Assembly (NCBI RefSeq): GCF_017309385.1
Contig: NZ_JAFJMJ010000004.1
Span: 62,001 to 126,000, forward strand
Direction: 5' to 3'
Source: Amycolatopsis sp. 195334CR
GTDB taxonomy: Bacteria; Actinomycetota; Actinomycetes; Mycobacteriales; Pseudonocardiaceae
Length of the DNA: 64,000 bases
The first letter of the stretch is position 1. Each line of letters begins with the position of its first letter. Shown here piece after piece: positions 17,811 through 63,784 of the stretch. The notes beneath the pieces are model-generated. The model worked only from the letters and a program-made list of their open reading frames with translations. It did no database searches and was not told the origin of the DNA. Position numbers and translations under genes: made by a program.

Positions 17811-19061
17811 GTGGAGCTGCTGCTGGGCCTGGCCGGTCTGCTCGCGCTGGCCGCGGCCCTGCTGCCGAAGCTGACCAGCAACCGGCCGCTGTCCATGCCG
17901 CTGGTGCTGTTGCTGCTCGGCGTGGTGGTCGGCCTGCTGCCGCTGCCCGCGCCCTACGGGCAGGTGTGGGCGAACCCGGTGCCGCACCTGGGCGCGTTGC
18001 AGGTGATCACCGAGTTCGGCCTGATCATCGCGCTGGTCGGGGCCGGGCTGAACAGCGACCGGGTGCTCGGCTGGCGGTCGTGGAACTCCACCTGGCGGCT
18101 GCTGCTGGTGGCCATGCCGTTGTTCATCGGCGTGGTTTTCCTGCTGGGGCAGTGGTTGCTGGCGCTGCCGGTGGCCGCGGCGCTGGCGCTGGCCGCCGCG
18201 CTCGCGCCGACCGACCCGGTGCTGGCCTCGGACGTCGGGGTGCCCGAACCCCACGCCGGTTCGGAACTGGCCGCGGGCAACGAAGTGCGGTTCACCCTGA
18301 CCACCGAGGCTGGGCTCAACGACGGCCTGGCGATGCCGTTCGTGATGCTGGCCGTCCTGCTCGCCGGTGGCCTGCCGGGGCCGGGGAAGCTCGCTGTCGA
18401 ACTGCTGCTGCCGCTGCCGGTCGGGGTGGCCGTCGGGGTGGCGATCGGGCTGCTGCTCGGCAGGCTGATCTTCCGCGCCGAGTCCGACCAGGTGCGGTTG
18501 TCCGAGTACTCGGACGGCATGGTGGTGCTGGCCATGGCGTTCCTGCCGTTCGCCGCGGCGGAACTGCTGCAGGGCAACGGTTTCCTCGCCGTGTTCGCGG
18601 CCGCGGTGACCCTGCGGGCACGGGAGCGCTCGCACGGTTACCACGCCGTGCTGCACGAGTTCGGTGACCAGCTGGAACGGTTGTTCGTCGCGGTCGCGCT
18701 GCTGGGCCTCGGCGTGGCGATCGGGGACGGGCTGCTGTCCGGCCTGCGCCCGCTGGAATTCGTGCTGGCCGCGGTGGCGGTTTTTGTGGTGCGCCCGCTC
18801 ACCGGCCTGCTCTCGCTGTTCGGCGCACCGCCGGGCCGTCGTGGTGCGGCGGCCATCTCGTTCTTCGGCGTGCGTGGGATCGGGACGCTGTTCTACGTCA
18901 CCTACGCGCTCGCGCACGGTGACTTCCCGCTGCCGGACGTGATCTGGCGGGTGGCCGCGCTGGCCGTGGCGCTGTCGGTGGTGGTGCACGGCATCACCGC
19001 GGAACCGGCGATGCGGCGGCTCGAACGCCTCGGCGCGCAGGGCAGGCGTGGGACCGCTTGA
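17811..19061 (+). CDS. cation:proton antiporter (CPA1/NhaP-like)
   Basis: 416 residues from GTG at 17811, 4 bp after the oxidoreductase stop. Twelve or so hydrophobic segments; LAPTDPVLASDV contains the TDP motif and LTTEAGLNDGLAMPFVM the (E/N)D ion-binding helix typical of Na+/H+ exchangers. Expected to exchange Na+ or K+ for H+ across the membrane and so regulate pH and salt tolerance. It shares the SigB-type promoter of the preceding gene, consistent with osmotic or alkaline stress induction. Confidence 0.85.
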   Translation: MELLLGLAGLLALAAALLPKLTSNRPLSMPLVLLLLGVVVGLLPLPAPYGQVWANPVPHLGALQVITEFGLIIALVGAGLNSDRVLGWRSWNSTWRLLLVAMPLFIGVVFLLGQWLLALPVAAALALAAALAPTDPVLASDVGVPEPHAGSELAAGNEVRFTLTTEAGLNDGLAMPFVMLAVLLAGGLPGPGKLAVELLLPLPVGVAVGVAIGLLLGRLIFRAESDQVRLSEYSDGMVVLAMAFLPFAAAELLQGNGFLAVFAAAVTLRARERSHGYHAVLHEFGDQLERLFVAVALLGLGVAIGDGLLSGLRPLEFVLAAVAVFVVRPLTGLLSLFGAPPGRRGAAAISFFGVRGIGTLFYVTYALAHGDFPLPDVIWRVAALAVALSVVVHGITAEPAMRRLERLGAQGRRGTA

Positions 19062-54099: not shown

Positions 54100-57042
54100 T
54101 CAACCACCTGAACCGAACAACTGCACATGGGTCGAGAACGCCGTGGCGATCTCGGCCTGCGCCCAGAACCGGTGGTAGGTCAGCGTCGGCGCCGGTCCGC
54201 CGTCCAAATAGTCCTGGACCTTCGGCCACTGCGGGTCGTCGGTGTAGAACGACCGGATGGACAGGAAGTCCGCACCCGCGGCGATCTGGTCGCCGTTGGG
54301 CATCTCCCCGGTCCAGCCCGGCGGCACGTACACGCCCTCGCCGCTGGTCGCGTTGTACTCGTCGTCGAAGCGGTTGTAGTCCGCCCGCGTCTCCGGCACC
54401 GCGATCCCGATCTCGTCGGTGTGCGCCAGCATCGCGTCGAGCAGGCCCTCACCCACGGTCCTGGCCTCGGCGTTGCCGGACTTCGCCGCGTAGTTCAGCA
54501 GGATCTTCGCGTACGCGGCCGCCACGCCGACATCCTGGCTGTGGTTGAGCACGGTGACGTGCAGCCCGGAGTTCGCCCCCGGCGAGGACGGGTTCCAGGT
54601 GTCCGGGTTCCCGGTCCACTGCAGGTCGTTCGGGATGGCGAACTGGCCACCGGTGCCGACGGTGGTGTTGTCGATCGCCCACGGCACCCACTTGTCCAGG
54701 ATCTTCTTCGCCCGCGCGTCCCCGGTCTGCTGGTACAGCGCGGCCACCCGCTCCAGCCCCCACGCCTGGAAGCCGAACCAACGGTTGCTCGGCGGGTCGT
54801 GCCAGACCGGCTGGTAGTCGTAGTACATGCCGTAGAAGGTCGGCAGCCCGGCCGGCGGGGTGCCGTAGTTGCCCTCCCAGCTGTTCGTCGCGCCACCGGC
54901 GATACCGCCTTCGGACGACTGCAGCCACTGCAGGAACTCCAGCTGCCGCTCCAGGCTCTTGGCCCAGTCCTGCGCGCCGGTGGCCGAGATCGGCTTGAGC
55001 GCCGGGTCGTTGGCCAGCGCGTGCGCGGCGAGCGGGTTCTGGTAACCCTGGTGGGCCGCGCCGTCGCCGATGCGCCACGCCCAGCCCGCCGAGGTGTCGG
55101 TCGCGCCACCCCAGGCGTAGTACCAGGACATCAGGTAGTGCTCGCTGTTCTTGCCGCTGCCCGCCGGGCAGCTGCTCGGGCCGACGCAGTTGCCGATCTT
55201 CTTGAAGTACTTGTCGAACATGGCGTACCGCAGGTAGTCGCCCATCTTCGACGCCTTCTTCACGGTGTCGGCGATCTGCGCGCCCTTGCCCTGCGCGGTG
55301 GCCCACTGGTTGGCCAGGTGCGCCACCTGCACCGCGCGCGCGTCGGCGTCGGGGGCGTTGGTGTACTTCCACTGCTTGGCGTAGCTGGCGTCCTTGGTGA
55401 ACAGGTCGAGGTACCCGTTCGGGCCGCCGTGCGCGAAGGTGTCGCACGAGGGCTGCGGGATGGTCTCCCACACCGACTCGCTGGACCCGCGCTGGTAGGT
55501 GTTCATGTACGCCGGGGCGGTGGTGCCGTCCCCGCAGCGGCCGAAGCCGTAGGTGTTGTCGACGTCGATCAGCCAGTGCATGCCGTAGATGTCGTCGGTG
55601 CCGTAGGCGGCCTTCAGCTCGGCCGCGATCGGGTCGGCCCCGACCGGCACCGAGCTCTCCAGCTGCGACGGGTACTTGTCCATCCGCGGGTGTTCCGGCG
55701 CGTACGTCGCGGGCTTGCTCGCGTTGTACTTGTCGTTGGTGGGCTGGTCGGCCTTCGCCGGGATGATGTACTTCTCCATCGACGCCCAGGCCGCGTTGAA
55801 CGGGGCCCAGTCACCCTGCAGCTGACCGTAGGCGGCCTCCAGCCACAGGTAGTAGCTGAACGCCTCCGAGGTGGTCTGGTGCCCGTGGTCCGGTGCCTCC
55901 ACCAGCAGCGTCTCCACCGAGTGGTACGGCACCAGCAGCCCGCCGAAATTGCGGAAGTAGCCGCTGTCCGGGTCCTTGATCTTGTTGTACTGCTCCAGGA
56001 ACGCCGCCTGGTAGTCGGAGGCGGCCGGGTCCAGTTCGGTCACGTCGATCGGCGCCGCGGTCAGGCCCGGCGCGGTGACCGAGAAGCTGGCCGTGGCCGG
56101 GGCGCCGCCGTTGGCCGCCGAGCTGATCGTCACCGGCTGGCCGACGTTCCAGTTGGCCGTGGTGAACGAGAGCGTGGCCGGGCTGGCGGTCAGGTCCGTG
56201 CTGCCCGACGCCCTGGCCACGGTCACCGTGACCGGGCCGCTGGGCTGCACCGCCAGCTTGACGTCCACCGTGGTGGTGCCGCCCTGCTTGACGTTGACCT
56301 TCGACGGCGTGGTGACCACCGCGGGGGCGGCGAGCACCTTCACCGCGACCGGGGTGGACATCGAGGTCGCGCCCTTGTTGTCGAAGGCCTTGGCGGTCAC
56401 CGAGTACTCACCGGCGGCCGCGCCGGTCCAGTTGTACTGGTACGGCGCGGTGGTGTCCGTGCCGAGCAGCTGCGTCCCGGCGTAGAACTCCACCTTCTGC
56501 ACCGTGCCGTCGGAGTCGCTGGCGCTGGCTTCGAGCGGGATCTCGGCCGGGACCGCGTAGGAGGAGTTCGCGGCGGGCTTGGTCAGCTGCACGCCGGGGG
56601 CCTTGTTCGCCCCGGTGCACGCCGTGCCGTTGACCGCGAAGTCGGCAGGCACCCGGTTCTGCGCGCCCTTGCTGGCGTTGAAGCCGAACTGCGCGGTGGC
56701 ACCGGTGGCCAGCGTCCGGTTCCAGTTCACCCCGCGCACGCTCACCGCGGACCCGGTCTGGGTGTGCGTGCCGTTCCACAGCTGGGTGATCTGCTGGCCG
56801 TCGGGGAAGGTCCAGGTGAGATTCCAGTCCAGCGCCTCGGTGCCTTCGTTGCGCACGTCCACGGTGGCGCCGAAGCCGTTGCCCCACTCACTGCCCACCT
56901 TGTAGGTCACCGTGCAGGCCACGTCGGCGGCGGTGGCCGCGGGCGTCAGCCCCACCGTGGCCGCGGCGCCCATCAGGGCCACCGCGGCCAGCGCGGGCAG
57001 CGGCCGCGCCCGCCTCGGCCTGGCGAATAGTCGTGATCTCAA
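54100..57042 (-). CDS. GH48 reducing-end-acting exocellulase (cellobiohydrolase) with CBM2
   Basis: 980 residues. Start is TTG at 57042, decided by AGGAGG 5 nt upstream and by the good signal peptide (1-39, cleavage after ATAA). Domains: CBM2 ~41-137; Ig-like ~145-240 (ASDSDGTVQKVEFYAGTQLLG); a second beta domain ~241-335; GH48 ~338-980 (FLEQYNKIKDP, HGHQTTSEAFSYYLWLEA with the catalytic Glu, GMHWLIDVDNTYGFG). GH48 enzymes run processively along cellulose releasing cellobiose and act with GH9 enzymes. The gene follows GH9-CBM3c by 99 bp with no CebR site of its own and is probably co-transcribed; a weak hairpin (57087-57114) in the gap may tune the ratio. Confidence 0.94.
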   Translation of the reverse strand: MRSRLFARPRRARPLPALAAVALMGAAATVGLTPAATAADVACTVTYKVGSEWGNGFGATVDVRNEGTEALDWNLTWTFPDGQQITQLWNGTHTQTGSAVSVRGVNWNRTLATGATAQFGFNASKGAQNRVPADFAVNGTACTGANKAPGVQLTKPAANSSYAVPAEIPLEASASDSDGTVQKVEFYAGTQLLGTDTTAPYQYNWTGAAAGEYSVTAKAFDNKGATSMSTPVAVKVLAAPAVVTTPSKVNVKQGGTTTVDVKLAVQPSGPVTVTVARASGSTDLTASPATLSFTTANWNVGQPVTISSAANGGAPATASFSVTAPGLTAAPIDVTELDPAASDYQAAFLEQYNKIKDPDSGYFRNFGGLLVPYHSVETLLVEAPDHGHQTTSEAFSYYLWLEAAYGQLQGDWAPFNAAWASMEKYIIPAKADQPTNDKYNASKPATYAPEHPRMDKYPSQLESSVPVGADPIAAELKAAYGTDDIYGMHWLIDVDNTYGFGRCGDGTTAPAYMNTYQRGSSESVWETIPQPSCDTFAHGGPNGYLDLFTKDASYAKQWKYTNAPDADARAVQVAHLANQWATAQGKGAQIADTVKKASKMGDYLRYAMFDKYFKKIGNCVGPSSCPAGSGKNSEHYLMSWYYAWGGATDTSAGWAWRIGDGAAHQGYQNPLAAHALANDPALKPISATGAQDWAKSLERQLEFLQWLQSSEGGIAGGATNSWEGNYGTPPAGLPTFYGMYYDYQPVWHDPPSNRWFGFQAWGLERVAALYQQTGDARAKKILDKWVPWAIDNTTVGTGGQFAIPNDLQWTGNPDTWNPSSPGANSGLHVTVLNHSQDVGVAAAYAKILLNYAAKSGNAEARTVGEGLLDAMLAHTDEIGIAVPETRADYNRFDDEYNATSGEGVYVPPGWTGEMPNGDQIAAGADFLSIRSFYTDDPQWPKVQDYLDGGPAPTLTYHRFWAQAEIATAFSTHVQLFGSGG

Positions 57043-57141: not shown

Positions 57142-59199
<2,058 letters not shown>

Positions 59200-59214: not shown

Positions 59215-59228
59215 TGGAAGCGCTCCCA
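59215..59228. promoter_or_regulatory. CebR-type operator before the lipoprotein gene
   Basis: TGGAAGCGCTCCCA, one base from the perfect palindrome, 20 bp before the lipoprotein start and 112 bp centre-to-centre from the GH9 site. Confidence 0.8.
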
Positions 59229-59248
59229 AAGCTGGGGTTGGAGGCCGC

Positions 59249-59797
59249 ATGAACCGGGTCGGTGCCGCCGTGCTCGCCGCACTGGTCGGGCTCACCGGGT
59301 GCTCGGCGGACGGCCGGGAGGAGCCGTCCGCCGAGCGCGGTTCGGCCGCGCTGACCGCGCGGCTGGACACGATGGACCAGGTGATCGGCTGGGTCGAGGA
59401 CAAAGCCGGGGAATGCACGCGGGTGGTCCGGGAAAAGCCCGCCGATCTGCGGGCTTTCGTCGGTTCCGATATCGCCGCGCTCTACGAACCGTTCGTCAGT
59501 GAATGGGCCAGCTGCGCGGTCTCGGCCGAATACCCCAGGGTCGGCCTGCTGTTGTTCGGCGGTGATCGGCAACTGGAGTTCCAGCGTTCGTGGCAGCGCG
59601 CGATGGCCGGGGGAACGATCGGGGACGGGCCCACCTTCGCCTTCGGCAACGGGTTCGCGGTTTCCGCCGGTTTTCTCGGGGTGAGCGCGCTCGATCTCTA
59701 CTACTTCCGGTGCGACTACCACGACGACCGGGTCCCGCAGGTGCCCGCCGACGTCGACGGCTGCGTGTACGCCGATCCCGAGCACGGGCATCACTGA
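59249..59797 (+). CDS. unknown lipoprotein in the CebR regulon
   Basis: 182 residues from ATG 59249 (GGAGG upstream). Lipobox LTGC with Cys18, then a polar linker. The mature part contains three more cysteines (ECTRVV, SCAVSA, RCDYHDD plus GCVYAD at the end) that could form disulphides, a Trp-containing helix and a hydrophobic GNGFAVSAGFLGVSALDLYYF segment. I recognise no family. The CebR-type site 20 bp upstream, divergent from a cellulase and convergent with an LPMO gene, strongly suggests induction by cello-oligosaccharides. A cell-surface role in cellulose sensing, enzyme retention or copper/redox supply to the LPMO is conceivable but not shown. Confidence 0.7.
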   Translation: MNRVGAAVLAALVGLTGCSADGREEPSAERGSAALTARLDTMDQVIGWVEDKAGECTRVVREKPADLRAFVGSDIAALYEPFVSEWASCAVSAEYPRVGLLLFGGDRQLEFQRSWQRAMAGGTIGDGPTFAFGNGFAVSAGFLGVSALDLYYFRCDYHDDRVPQVPADVDGCVYADPEHGHH

Positions 59798-59824: not shown

Positions 59825-60859
59825 CTACGGGCTCTGGCAGGTGACCGCCGGGACCACCGGTGTGCTGCCCGGCGAGTTCACCGACAGCCCGAACTTCGCG
59901 GACCCGTTGGCCGCCACACCGGCGTTCCAGTCCACGTTGCGCACCGTCACCTGATCACCGGACTGGGTCTGCGTGCCGTTCCACACGCTGTTGACCGTCT
60001 GCCCGGCGGGCAGCGTCCAGTTCGCCCGCCAGCCCGACAGCGGGGTGGTGCCCTGGTTCTTCACCGTCACCTCGGCCTGGTGTCCGCCGTTCCAGGTGCT
60101 GGTGACCGCGTACTCGGCCACGCAGCTCCCGGTGGCCGGTGGCGTGCCCGTGCTGTCCTTGACCCCGGTGACCTCGCCGTTCCCGCCGTCGAAGGTGACG
60201 TCGGAGCAGCCGTAGAAGGTCTCCGCGCTGTCCGAGCGCTTCCACACCGAGTAGATGATGTGGCGTCCGCTCTTGCCCGACGGGAGCGCGCCGGACCACT
60301 TGTACTGCGCCTCCACGCTGCCCACCGAGCCGGTCACCGGCGGGTGGTCCACGGTCAGGAACGGCTGGTCCTCCAGGTCGTCCCAGCGCAGCGGGGCGTC
60401 GGGGTTCCAGCCGTTCTTGGTCACGTAGAGGTAGAACCAGCCGGGGTGGGCGGCCCAGGCGTTGTAGGAGAAGTTGAAGTTCGCCCCGGAGGTCAGGTGC
60501 GTCAGCGGCCAGTTCCCGGTCCCGTTGAAGCCGGAGAAGCTGGGGTTGCCGCCGGAGCAGAGCTGCCCGTCGGGGATGAAGCCGCGGGTCCGGCCCGCCC
60601 CGTCGGACCGGAGCACAGAGAACCAGTTGTAGAGCGAATTCGCCCCGCTCTGGTTCACCGCCGCCGAGCAGGCGGGGTTGATCGGCACGATGTTGCCCTG
60701 CGGACTGAGCCCGTCCTGCCAGCAGAGGAAGGTCCGGCTGCCCGCTTTCATCAGCGCGCCGTGCGCCGACGCCCCCGGCGCGCCCAGCACCATGGTGAGC
60801 AAACCGGCCACCAGAGCGGTGACGGCGGCGAGTGCGGTACCCGCCCTTTTCTTTGTCAC
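59825..60859 (-). CDS. AA10 lytic polysaccharide monooxygenase with CBM2
   Basis: 344 residues from GTG at 60859 (GAAGGAAGCGAAGA upstream). Signal 1-32; cleavage after ASA exposes His33, the N-terminal copper-brace residue (HGALMKAGSRTFLCWQDG). The second brace His is in NAWAAHPGWFYLYV. The layout (NPACSAAVNQSGANSLYNWFSVL, PDGQLCSGG, CSDVTFDGG) is that of the cellulose-active C1-oxidising AA10 group such as CelS2. CBM2 covers ~245-344. It cuts crystalline cellulose oxidatively and boosts GH48/GH9. A CebR-type site lies 58 bp upstream. Confidence 0.94.
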   Translation of the reverse strand: MTKKRAGTALAAVTALVAGLLTMVLGAPGASAHGALMKAGSRTFLCWQDGLSPQGNIVPINPACSAAVNQSGANSLYNWFSVLRSDGAGRTRGFIPDGQLCSGGNPSFSGFNGTGNWPLTHLTSGANFNFSYNAWAAHPGWFYLYVTKNGWNPDAPLRWDDLEDQPFLTVDHPPVTGSVGSVEAQYKWSGALPSGKSGRHIIYSVWKRSDSAETFYGCSDVTFDGGNGEVTGVKDSTGTPPATGSCVAEYAVTSTWNGGHQAEVTVKNQGTTPLSGWRANWTLPAGQTVNSVWNGTQTQSGDQVTVRNVDWNAGVAANGSAKFGLSVNSPGSTPVVPAVTCQSP

Positions 60860-60917: not shown

Positions 60918-60931
60918 TGGAAGCGCTCCCA
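60918..60931. promoter_or_regulatory. CebR-type operator before the LPMO gene
   Basis: TGGAAGCGCTCCCA, the same one-base variant as at 59215. The 348-bp gap 60860-61207 between the divergent LPMO and GH9 genes holds this site, the one at 61107 and no convincing ORF. Confidence 0.85.
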
Positions 60932-61106: not shown

Positions 61107-61120
61107 TGGGAGCGCTCCTA
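61107..61120. promoter_or_regulatory. CebR-type operator before the CBM4-GH9-CBM2 gene
   Basis: TGGGAGCGCTCCTA, one base from the perfect palindrome, 87 bp before the start. Confidence 0.85.
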
Positions 61121-61207: not shown

Positions 61208-63784
61208 ATGGGGAACAGAGCACGACGGCGTGCGCTGACGGCCACCGGCGCGGTACTGGCCGCCGGTCTGCTGGCACTGCCACCCGCCGCGGCCGCGGCG
61301 GCCTACGAACGCGTGGTGAACGGGGACTTCGCCAGTGGTGAGGTCAACCCGTGGTGGAACGGTTCGGGCACCACCGGTTCGGTGGTGGGCGGCGAGTTCT
61401 GCACCAAGGTCACCGGCGGCACGGTCAACGGCTACGACGCGCTCGCCGGGCAGAACGGCGTGGCCTTCGAAGCCGGGCAGTCCTACACGCTGAAGTTCGA
61501 CGCGCGCGCGACCACCGCCCAGCCGATCTCGGCGGTGGCCGGGGAGTCGGTCGCGCCGTACCGGCAGATCGCCAGGACGGACGTGGCGCTCACCCCGGAA
61601 CGGCAGAGCTTCACCTACACCTTCGAGTCCACATTGGACTTCCCGGGCGCCGGGAACGGGCAGCTGGCCTTCTGGTTCGGCGGCCAGTCCTTCGACAACA
61701 CCATCTGCGTGGACAACGTCTCACTGGTCGGCGGGGTGAAACCACCGGCCGGGCTCGAACCCGCCGCGCCGGTGCGGGTCAACCAGGTCGGGTACCTGCC
61801 GGGGCTGCCCAAGCAGGCGAGCGTGGCGAACGAGGCCACGACGCCGGTTCCGTGGACGCTGAAGAACTCGGCGGGAACGGCGGTCGCGAGCGGGCAGAGC
61901 ACCCCGAAGGGGCTGGACCCGCTGTCCGGGGAGAACGTGCACCTGGTCGACTTCTCCTCGTACGAAACGGTCGGCACCGGCTACACGCTCACCGTCGGCG
62001 CGGACACGAGCCACCCGTTCGACATCTCGCCGGACGTGCTCAAGGACCTGCGCTACGACTCGCTGGCGTTCTTCTACCACCAGCGCAGCGGGACGCCGAT
62101 CGAGGCCGAGTACGTGGGTGCGGAGTACGCGCGGCCGGCCGGGCACCTGAACGTGGCGCCGAACCAGGGCGACAACGACGTGCCGTGCCTGGCCGGGGTC
62201 GCCTGCGGGTACACCTTGGACGTGCCGGGCGGCTGGTACGACGCGGGTGATCACGGCAAGTACGTGGTCAACGGCGGGATCTCGGTCTGGCAGCTGCTCA
62301 ACGAGTACGAGCGGGCGCTGCGCGTCGGCGACGCGGCGGCGCTGGGCGACGGCAAGCTGGCCATCCCGGAAAGCGGCAACGGGGTGCCGGACATCCTGGA
62401 CGAAGCCCGGTGGGAGGTCGAGTTCCTGCTGAAGATGCAGGTGCCGGACGGCAATCCGCTCGCGGGCATGGCGCACCACAAGATCCACGACGCGCAGTGG
62501 ACCGGGCTGCCGTTGCTGCCGCACCTCGATCCGCAGGTCCGGCGGCTGTCCGCGCCGAGCACGGCGGCGACGTTGAACCTGGCCGCGGTGGCGGCGCAGG
62601 CCGCGAGGTTGTGGAAGGACATCGACCCGGCGTTCTCCGCGCAGGCGCTGACCGCGGCGGAGAAGGCGTACCAGGCGGCGCGGGCCAATCCGGCGAAGCT
62701 GGCCGATCCCGCCGACGGGACCGGGGGCGGTGCCTACAGCGACGGCACGGTGACCGACGAGTTCTACTGGGCGGCGGCGGAGTTGTTCGCGACCACGGGT
62801 TCTCATCAAAGTGATGTCACCGGTTCGCCGCTGTACAAGGGCGCGAGCTTCAACACCCGCGGGTTCGACTGGGGTTCGACGGGTGCGCTCGGCGACATCA
62901 CCCTGGCGCTGGTGCCGACCGCGCTGCCCGCCGCGGACGTGGCCGCGATCAAGCAGGCGATCACCACCACCGCGGACGGGCACCTGACGCAGATGGCCAC
63001 GCAGGGGCACCCGGCGCCGTACCGCACGCAGGACGGTTCGTACGAATGGGGTTCCAACGGGCTGGTCGCGAACAACGGGGTCGTGCTGGCGCTGGCGTAC
63101 GACTTCACGAAGCAGGCGAAGTACCGGGAGGGCGCGTTCGGCGTGATGAACTACCTGCTCGGGCGGAATCCGGTGAACTACTCGTACGTTTCGGGCTGGG
63201 GTGACCAGCCGGTGCGGAACGTGCACCACCGGCACTGGGCGAACCAGCTCGACCCGTCGCTGCCGATCGCGCCGGCGGGCGCGTTGTCGGGCGGGCCGAA
63301 CAGCGCGCTGCAGGACCCGATCTCGGCGGGACTGCTGCAGGGTTGCCCGGCGCAGCGGTGCTTCGTCGACCACATCGAGGCGTACTCGGTCAACGAGGTG
63401 ACGGTGAACTGGAACTCGGCGCTGGCCTGGCTGGCGAACTGGACGGCGGAGAAGTCCGTTGTGGAGGCTCCGGCGTCGTGCTCGGTGGCGTATGCGGCGA
63501 ACGGGTGGGGGTCCGGTCTTTCGGCGTCGGTGACGGTGAAGAACGAGAGTGCGACGGCGTGGAACGGGTGGACGTTGAAGTTCTCGTTCGCGGGGAATGA
63601 GAAGTTGCAGCATGGGTGGTCGGCGACGTGGTCGCAGCAGGGGAAGGACGTGACGGCGGTGAATCTGCCGTGGAATGCGTCGGTGGCGCCTGGGAAGTCG
63701 GTGACTATCGGTTTTAACGCGTCGAACTCTGGTCCTGCTACGACGCCGGCTTCTTTTGCGGTGAATGGGGCGGTATGTAAGTAG
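61208..63784 (+). CDS. GH9 cellulase CBM4-Ig-GH9-CBM2 (Cel9B-type)
   Basis: 858 residues, AAAGGAG upstream. Signal 1-32. CBM4 ~33-180 (VVNGDFASGEVNPWWNGSG); Ig-like CelD_N ~192-280 (VRVNQVGYLPGLPKQASVAN); GH9 ~285-735 with catalytic Asp pair in GGWYDAGDHGKY and acid Glu in YSVNEVTVNWNSAL; CBM2 ~757-858 (ASCSVAYAANGWGSGLSASVTV, quoted in part). Architecture of Thermobifida Cel9B, here without an FnIII domain between GH9 and CBM2. The CBM2-coding part uses many G- and T-ending codons, unlike the C-rich rest of the gene, suggesting that the module was acquired separately. Confidence 0.93.
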   Translation: MGNRARRRALTATGAVLAAGLLALPPAAAAAAYERVVNGDFASGEVNPWWNGSGTTGSVVGGEFCTKVTGGTVNGYDALAGQNGVAFEAGQSYTLKFDARATTAQPISAVAGESVAPYRQIARTDVALTPERQSFTYTFESTLDFPGAGNGQLAFWFGGQSFDNTICVDNVSLVGGVKPPAGLEPAAPVRVNQVGYLPGLPKQASVANEATTPVPWTLKNSAGTAVASGQSTPKGLDPLSGENVHLVDFSSYETVGTGYTLTVGADTSHPFDISPDVLKDLRYDSLAFFYHQRSGTPIEAEYVGAEYARPAGHLNVAPNQGDNDVPCLAGVACGYTLDVPGGWYDAGDHGKYVVNGGISVWQLLNEYERALRVGDAAALGDGKLAIPESGNGVPDILDEARWEVEFLLKMQVPDGNPLAGMAHHKIHDAQWTGLPLLPHLDPQVRRLSAPSTAATLNLAAVAAQAARLWKDIDPAFSAQALTAAEKAYQAARANPAKLADPADGTGGGAYSDGTVTDEFYWAAAELFATTGSHQSDVTGSPLYKGASFNTRGFDWGSTGALGDITLALVPTALPAADVAAIKQAITTTADGHLTQMATQGHPAPYRTQDGSYEWGSNGLVANNGVVLALAYDFTKQAKYREGAFGVMNYLLGRNPVNYSYVSGWGDQPVRNVHHRHWANQLDPSLPIAPAGALSGGPNSALQDPISAGLLQGCPAQRCFVDHIEAYSVNEVTVNWNSALAWLANWTAEKSVVEAPASCSVAYAANGWGSGLSASVTVKNESATAWNGWTLKFSFAGNEKLQHGWSATWSQQGKDVTAVNLPWNASVAPGKSVTIGFNASNSGPATTPASFAVNGAVCK

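Follow-up and report, generated by a model that had tools for sequence, protein, structure and literature searches.

A small lipoprotein that is encoded beside an AA10 LPMO gene in a cellulase cluster of Amycolatopsis sp. 195334CR belongs to a family with no Pfam entry and no significant match among solved folds, a family that we delimit here along with its genomic context. The association between the lipoprotein genes and AA10 genes is well supported. The lipoprotein may be an exported copper-handling partner of the LPMO, a plausible reading that falls a little short of probable, and in which copper as the ligand, physical contact between the two proteins and the direction of transfer are the parts that we infer. 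LPMOs depend on a single copper ion; how those secreted by bacteria obtain and retain it is an open question, as stated for LpmP (PMC9040799). A co-regulated partner with a candidate metal site would make the copper supply of LPMOs testable using two purified proteins, and it could be of practical use if the reading is true, since LPMOs are limited by copper release and oxidative damage (PMC12703677, accessible text).

The lipoprotein gene and its CebR-type operators

The window is the whole stretch of DNA that was analysed, 64,000 nucleotides in length. The features discussed below are as follows, the last two being located in the same genome beyond the window.

54100..57042, - strand: GH48-CBM2 cellulase (Pfam)
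57142..59064, - strand: GH9-CBM3 cellulase, divergent neighbour of the lipoprotein gene (Pfam)
59103..59116, no strand: TGGGAGCGCTCCCA, a perfect CebR palindrome, before the divergent GH9 gene (site scan)
59215..59228, no strand: CebR-type site TGGAAGCGCTCCCA for the lipoprotein gene, one mismatch, located 20 bp ahead of the ATG
59249..59797, + strand: lipoprotein gene, 182 aa, no Pfam family (ORF, ATG start)
59291..59302, + strand: lipobox LTGC, residues 15-18, with Cys18 (read from the sequence)
59777..59794, + strand: C-terminal PEHGHH tail (residues 177-182), a candidate metal site (from the His count in homologues)
59825..60859, - strand: AA10 LPMO with CBM2, convergent neighbour and proposed partner (Pfam LPMO_10 and CBM_2)
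60918..60931, no strand: CebR-type palindrome TGGAAGCGCTCCCA upstream of the AA10 gene (site scan)
61107..61120, no strand: CebR-type palindrome TGGGAGCGCTCCTA of the second GH9 gene (site scan)
61208..63784, + strand: GH9-CBM2 cellulase, the second GH9 (Pfam)
C4:130329-131666 of the same genome: cellobiose-type binding protein gene (L010) with its own palindrome, 4.3 kb past the window end
C4:131764-132897 of the same genome: LacI regulator gene (L011), also with a palindrome of its own, about 5.8 kb beyond the window

The preliminary description of this DNA had called the product a 182-residue lipoprotein of an unrecognised family, and this was borne out. The protein has the signal peptide and lipobox cysteine of a bacterial lipoprotein, and comparison with Pfam up to E 10 returned 0 families, with no domain of the known copper-chaperone families, no sugar-binding family, no redox domain and no CBM_2 domain. 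The best NCBIfam model, the SCO4651 lipoprotein family (NF053532), reached 13.7 bits over residues 4-55 only, below its curated membership cut-off of 65 bits. Membership of DUF3558 (PF12079) is unsupported: the window protein gave no match, 1 of the 10 homologues scanned gave a weak one (E 0.039, 14.3 bits; gathering cut-off 34.1), and hhalign of the lipoprotein against 11 DUF3558 proteins of its own genome gave values of 3-6%, compared with 0.1% for a reversed decoy.

The structure prediction and remote-homology search that had been suggested as a check were performed. The resulting model has a confident core (mean pLDDT 89.4) and no significant match among solved structures, and a sequence search of solved structures with the 26-row alignment A1 produced chance-level matches only (E at least 0.26). 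Cys18, Cys56, Cys89, Cys155 and Cys172 are invariant in all rows of A1; in the broader 36-row alignment A2, this is still true of Cys89, Cys155 and Cys172, and Cys18 and Cys56 are conserved in 90% or more of the rows. Two disulphides are probably formed from four of the conserved cysteines. No Met-rich site was seen in the lipoprotein.

The perfect palindrome TGGGAGCGCTCCCA is the published CebR element (PMC4898821, text available in part). An operator before the lipoprotein start, the same variant on the LPMO side and a GH9 cellulase as divergent neighbour had all been described previously, and each was found at the positions listed above. When up to 2 mismatches were allowed, the window contained 5 sites against 0.48 expected, a number reached in 0 of 100 shuffles; the site at 18621 may be a chance match. 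In the whole genome, 13 TGGNAGCGCTNCCA palindromes were counted, against 4 for the reversed control pattern, and one of the 13, which lies inside a coding ORF (L002), is probably due to chance. It had also been claimed that every other gene with a CebR site is a cellulose-degrading enzyme. This holds within the window and is too broad genome-wide, where the sites outside the window precede genes for an AA10 protein and a GH5 cellulase and also for a GH62, a CE2 esterase, two GSDH-family (PQQ-dehydrogenase-like) proteins, the cellobiose-type sugar-binding protein, the LacI regulator and a 379-aa protein.

The two GSDH-family genes (L006:269-1465:-, C2, site 2816567; L013:6-1472:-, C4, site 433815) are located directly behind their palindromes, and one of the products is fused to ThuA. 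The 379-aa protein (L003:1545-2681:+, C2, site 102751) looks secreted and is encoded behind a perfect CebR palindrome; neither Pfam nor NCBIfam contains a match for it, and its best solved protein is found only at E 0.011. It is a candidate for another uncharacterised member of the regulon.

The regulon reading is strengthened because the likely regulator gene is located close to the window, beyond its end. The best solved match of the LacI regulator is 5ysz (E 1.3e-101; the next is at 8.4e-42), which we take to be Thermobifida CelR. The adjacent binding protein matches solved solute-binding proteins, the second of which is the secreted cellobiose-binding protein 8bfy, and the two genes are likely to be a CebE/CebR pair beside the cluster. 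The lipoprotein gene has two marks of a CebR/CelR regulon member, a promoter palindrome of the TGGGAGCGCTCCCA type with one mismatch and a LacI-type regulator gene in the genome.

Occurrence of the family and pairing with AA10 genes

A protein-database search returned 63 homologous proteins at E up to 0.01, and a second search returned 34 among the 7999 scored candidates sharing most words. Homologues came from Amycolatopsis, Actinophytocola, Crossiella, Actinoalloteichus and Actinokineospora, all Pseudonocardiaceae, a range that rests on the rows with an organism name, as many rows carry none. When 396 genomes drawn from the phylum were searched with the A2 profile, the single match was the genome of the window itself, and among 390 genomes of the family Pseudonocardiaceae the lipoprotein was found in 72. 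A literature search by title or abstract found no published account of such a protein family.

To describe the gene context, 83 homologue loci (L046-L129 minus L087) were fetched, one for each match in the 390-genome search, and 80 were retained. The excluded loci were L129, where only a fragment is present at the end of a contig, and the distant homologues L098 and L099 (44-52 bits); L014 and L015 come from the same genomes as L048 and L050 and were not counted. Contig ends cut L073, L112, L125 and some other loci. In the two distant homologues (L098:9267-9842:-, 52 bits; L099:8709-9302:-, 44 bits), no AA10 gene adjoins the lipoprotein gene, and a second small lipoprotein-like gene comes next on the same strand in each.

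The tie between the lipoprotein and the LPMO that had been proposed from the window alone is supported across these loci. The distance from the lipoprotein gene to an AA10 gene is at most 220 bp in 61 of the 80 loci and at most 2.1 kb in 65. The 65 pairs are arranged in three layouts: convergent as in the window (9), divergent (8) and tandem with the AA10 gene upstream (48). In the tandem layout the gaps range from -13 to 64 bp, and the frames abut or overlap in some loci, the starts being predicted ones. Two types of AA10 serve as partner, a CelS2-type (nearest solved chain 4oy7), to which the window AA10 (locus L086) belongs, and an fn3-CBM2 type (nearest 6if7 and 8c5n). The genome of the window has 6 AA10 matches. 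Within the convergent group the AA10 side is constant, and the divergent neighbour is a GH9 gene in six loci and a GH48 gene in three (L049-L051). No GH48 or GH9 gene is present in the fetched stretch (about 9 kb on each side, contig allowing) of 25 of the 65 pairs, and the pair is therefore independent of a large cellulase cluster there. On the protein tree without L127, at least 4 changes of linkage and 6 of layout are needed; the numbers are 5 and 7 when L127 is included as unlinked, the score given to this locus at a contig end, where an AA10 gene begins another contig.

In 14 of the 80 loci there is no AA10 gene nearby. These include a paralogue clade (L075-L078, L080, L081, L088) beside genes like tig, clpP and clpX, which we name so from the starts of their products. 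The clade lacks both the palindrome and AA10, and its proteins have HH ends and, in most cases, His-rich N-terminal linkers. In one g2 genome, the lipoprotein gene adjoins a gene for a BNR-repeat protein (L064:7109-9313:-) that presumably resembles GH74 xyloglucanase, and the neighbouring gene in L067 and L069 is similar to it in size. In L058 (9259-9687:-) and L061 (8783-9238:-), where a palindrome is present and AA10 is absent, the gene that comes after the lipoprotein gene in the same orientation encodes a small membrane protein, which is DoxX-like in L058 and FxsA in L061.

In terms of operators, a palindrome with at most 1 mismatch was found within 220 bp of the lipoprotein start in 13 of the 80 loci and further upstream, within 5 kb, in an additional 46, which gives 59 in total; that the 46 distal palindromes act on the lipoprotein gene is an operon assumption. 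At the tandem loci the palindrome precedes the AA10 gene or the gene run, at an upstream distance of about 1.3-1.4 kb or 4.2 kb. Simulated sequences gave 0 sites in 796,970 bases. L058, L061 and L068 have no AA10 gene in the fetched stretch and carry a perfect palindrome that starts 35-43 bp before the start codon; in L050 and L051 there is a palindrome at -102 with two mismatches. The 21 loci with no palindrome within 5 kb upstream include L064, L065, L067, L069 and the seven of the tig-clpP clade, in which none was seen in about 19 kb.

The proposed survey of co-occurrence with AA10 and GH48 genes was carried out in the 390 family genomes. AA10 is present in 262 of them and in 72 of the 72 with the lipoprotein, and GH48 is present in 113 and in 71 of the 72, the one exception (G184) having only the tig-clpP-type paralogue. 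In the other direction, 42 of the 113 GH48 genomes have no lipoprotein. The lipoprotein and GH48 sets nest within varying genera: genomes with both and with neither number 19 and 6 in g8, 22 and 2 in g25, 4 and 4 in g22, and 1 and 15 in g4, and g1 has 7 with both, 32 with GH48 only and 41 with neither. The genus-stratified chi2 for lipoprotein against GH48 is 47.3, in which the strata lessen but do not abolish shared ancestry. Homologues that are widespread in genomes without cellulases and that lack the palindrome had been named as the pattern that would speak against a place in the cellulose regulon. The counts for GH48 and for the palindrome mostly run the other way, and the pattern is seen in part, in the loci without a palindrome and in the tig-clpP clade.

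The histidine tail and the MMH motif

At least two His are present in the last eight residues of 78 of the 80 homologues. For comparison, a simple script was used to call control ORFs in 59 of the loci, and such a tail was found in 7 of 835 other ORFs and in 0 of 30 other lipobox-like ORFs; these counts speak against a compositional artefact. Two homologues, L061 and L068, lack the tail, and both are rich in His in linkers close to the N-terminus. The lipobox cysteine has been replaced in 15 of the 21 members of clade g25 (for example GSVAF for GSVAC; starts uncertain), and all 21 have the HH end; the tail therefore outlasts the anchor. The earlier view of a surface-anchored protein stands for most clades, which have the lipobox, but anchoring does not define the family. 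In addition to copper, other metals can also be ligands of His tails.

Some CBM2s on cellulose-active AA10s bind Cu(I) via a Met-Met-His (MMH) motif, according to the available text of PMC12703677. The CBM2 of the window AA10 is without MMH, and the motif is present in only 2 of the 65 lipoprotein-linked AA10s (L048 and L053). For comparison, 39 of the 42 GH48 genomes without the lipoprotein were fetched (minus G043, G220 and G227), plus G377, which has no GH48, and the best AA10 match of each genome was read; MMH is present in 35 of 39, or 35 of 40 with G377. When only CelS2-type AA10s are considered, MMH is found in 2 of 17 linked against 46 of 50 unlinked proteins, and within the window's genus in 1 of 7 against 31 of 32. 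The four unlinked CelS2-type AA10s without the motif are L151, L187, L206 and L207. In lipoprotein-bearing genomes a further 20 AA10 genes were read, of which 11 have MMH (ten of ten in g8, and one in g42) and nine, all from other genera, do not.

This contrast is what would be expected if the lipoprotein acts in trans as MMH does in cis, and it is a lead, not proof. As proof of complementarity it was downgraded: the counts are striking but the independent events are few. On the catalytic-domain tree, linkage changes only 3 times and MMH 5 times, and a test of independent pairs cannot reach significance. The fn3-type partners are a different type of AA10, and the missing motif therefore reflects which paralogue is paired; an LPMO may also do without both, since 4 of the 39 lipoprotein-free genomes likewise have no MMH in the AA10.

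Candidate functions and related systems

The preliminary description had offered a sensor, an enzyme anchor, or a copper or electron partner for the LPMO. Among these options the copper partner fits best because the His tail is conserved. The process may be envisaged as follows. Cello-oligosaccharides would relieve a CebR-type repressor, and the lipoprotein would then be made with the LPMO and the cellulases, as their shared operators suggest. The lipoprotein would be positioned on the outer side of the membrane, the place where the LPMO comes out and its N-terminal His is freed by signal cleavage, and the C-terminal His tail would bind copper and load it into the new apo-LPMO. Alternatively, the tail might hold or cap the copper so that the LPMO neither loses it nor performs damaging redox chemistry when substrate is absent. 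It is possible, but rather doubtful, that this is the first family of copper delivery or copper guarding dedicated to LPMOs, in which the His tail in trans replaces the MMH CBM2 and the partner LPMOs can lose MMH.

The observations that favour a copper-handling partner are the adjacency to AA10 in three layouts and with two AA10 types, the co-occurrence with GH48, the His tail and the MMH contrast; the perfect palindromes kept by L058, L061 and L068 without AA10 were also counted in its favour. Against it stand the 42 GH48 genomes without the lipoprotein, the 14 loci without AA10, the two linked LPMOs that keep MMH, the four unlinked CelS2-type LPMOs that lack it, the probable use of the conserved cysteines in disulphides, the absence of a Met-rich site and the ability of His tails to bind other metals. 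The constant AA10 neighbour and the lipid anchor of most clades would be explained as well by an accessory that does not handle metal and that helps the LPMO in folding, surface retention, recruitment or export, with the His tail used for contact. There is a precedent in Streptomyces, where the cell-surface lipoprotein CslZ interacts with the LPMO LpmP (PMC9040799, available part). This explanation is nevertheless fairly unlikely, as g25 loses the lipobox cysteine and retains the tail, which a plain anchor leaves unexplained. A general metal buffer or envelope lipoprotein for copper, zinc or another metal, recruited to the cellulose regulon and not acting on the LPMO, would agree with the His-rich ends that the tig-clpP paralogues keep in the absence of AA10 and the palindrome. 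The 61 loci with AA10 within 220 bp, in all layouts, with both types and with some frames abutting or overlapping, make it unlikely.

The CebR-type sites and the lipoprotein nature could also point to a sensor or binding protein for cello-oligosaccharides or the substrate surface. We consider this role very unlikely given that the protein belongs to no sugar-binding family and that a cellobiose-type binding protein, with a palindrome of its own, is separately encoded just past the window. An electron donor would account for the pairing with the LPMO and is the most improbable of the functions considered: no cofactor motif is visible, CxxCH, the mark of a c-type cytochrome, occurs in 0 of 80 homologues, and no known redox domain was matched. 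Better candidates for a donor are the two GSDH-family proteins that the same genome encodes behind CebR-type sites; as PQQ-type dehydrogenases, they could supply LPMOs with electrons.

In comparison with known systems, the lipoprotein resembles the DUF3558 or PknH-like extracytoplasmic domains in being a small actinobacterial lipoprotein, and one homologue has the sub-threshold DUF3558 match. Like the CebR/CelR cellulose regulons, as described in the accessible text of PMC4898821, the cluster has this 14-bp palindrome and, close by, a LacI regulator that carries a site of its own; the difference is that the lipoprotein is neither a CAZyme nor a transporter. It is also similar to CslZ in being a surface lipoprotein paired with an LPMO, but CslZ is a hydrolase (PMC9040799, in the part available), whereas the window lipoprotein matches no hydrolase family. 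Sco, PCuAC, CopC and YcnI are likewise exported and have been proposed to bind copper or deliver it to a secreted cuproenzyme (PMC9040799, PMC10952591 and PMC8424229, each as partly accessible). In contrast to these proteins, the lipoprotein has no Pfam match and is tied to LPMO genes and a cellulose regulator; if a copper-handling role holds, it would work like the extracytoplasmic copper chaperones, yet outside all the families tested. The MMH CBM2 would have the same purpose, in that it binds copper next to the active site of the LPMO, which counters copper loss and off-pathway chemistry, and delivery of copper by this domain to the apo-LPMO has also been suggested by the authors (PMC12703677, available text). 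The lipoprotein differs from it in being a separate protein that would act in trans, with no CBM2 domain and with a His tail in place of Met-Met-His.
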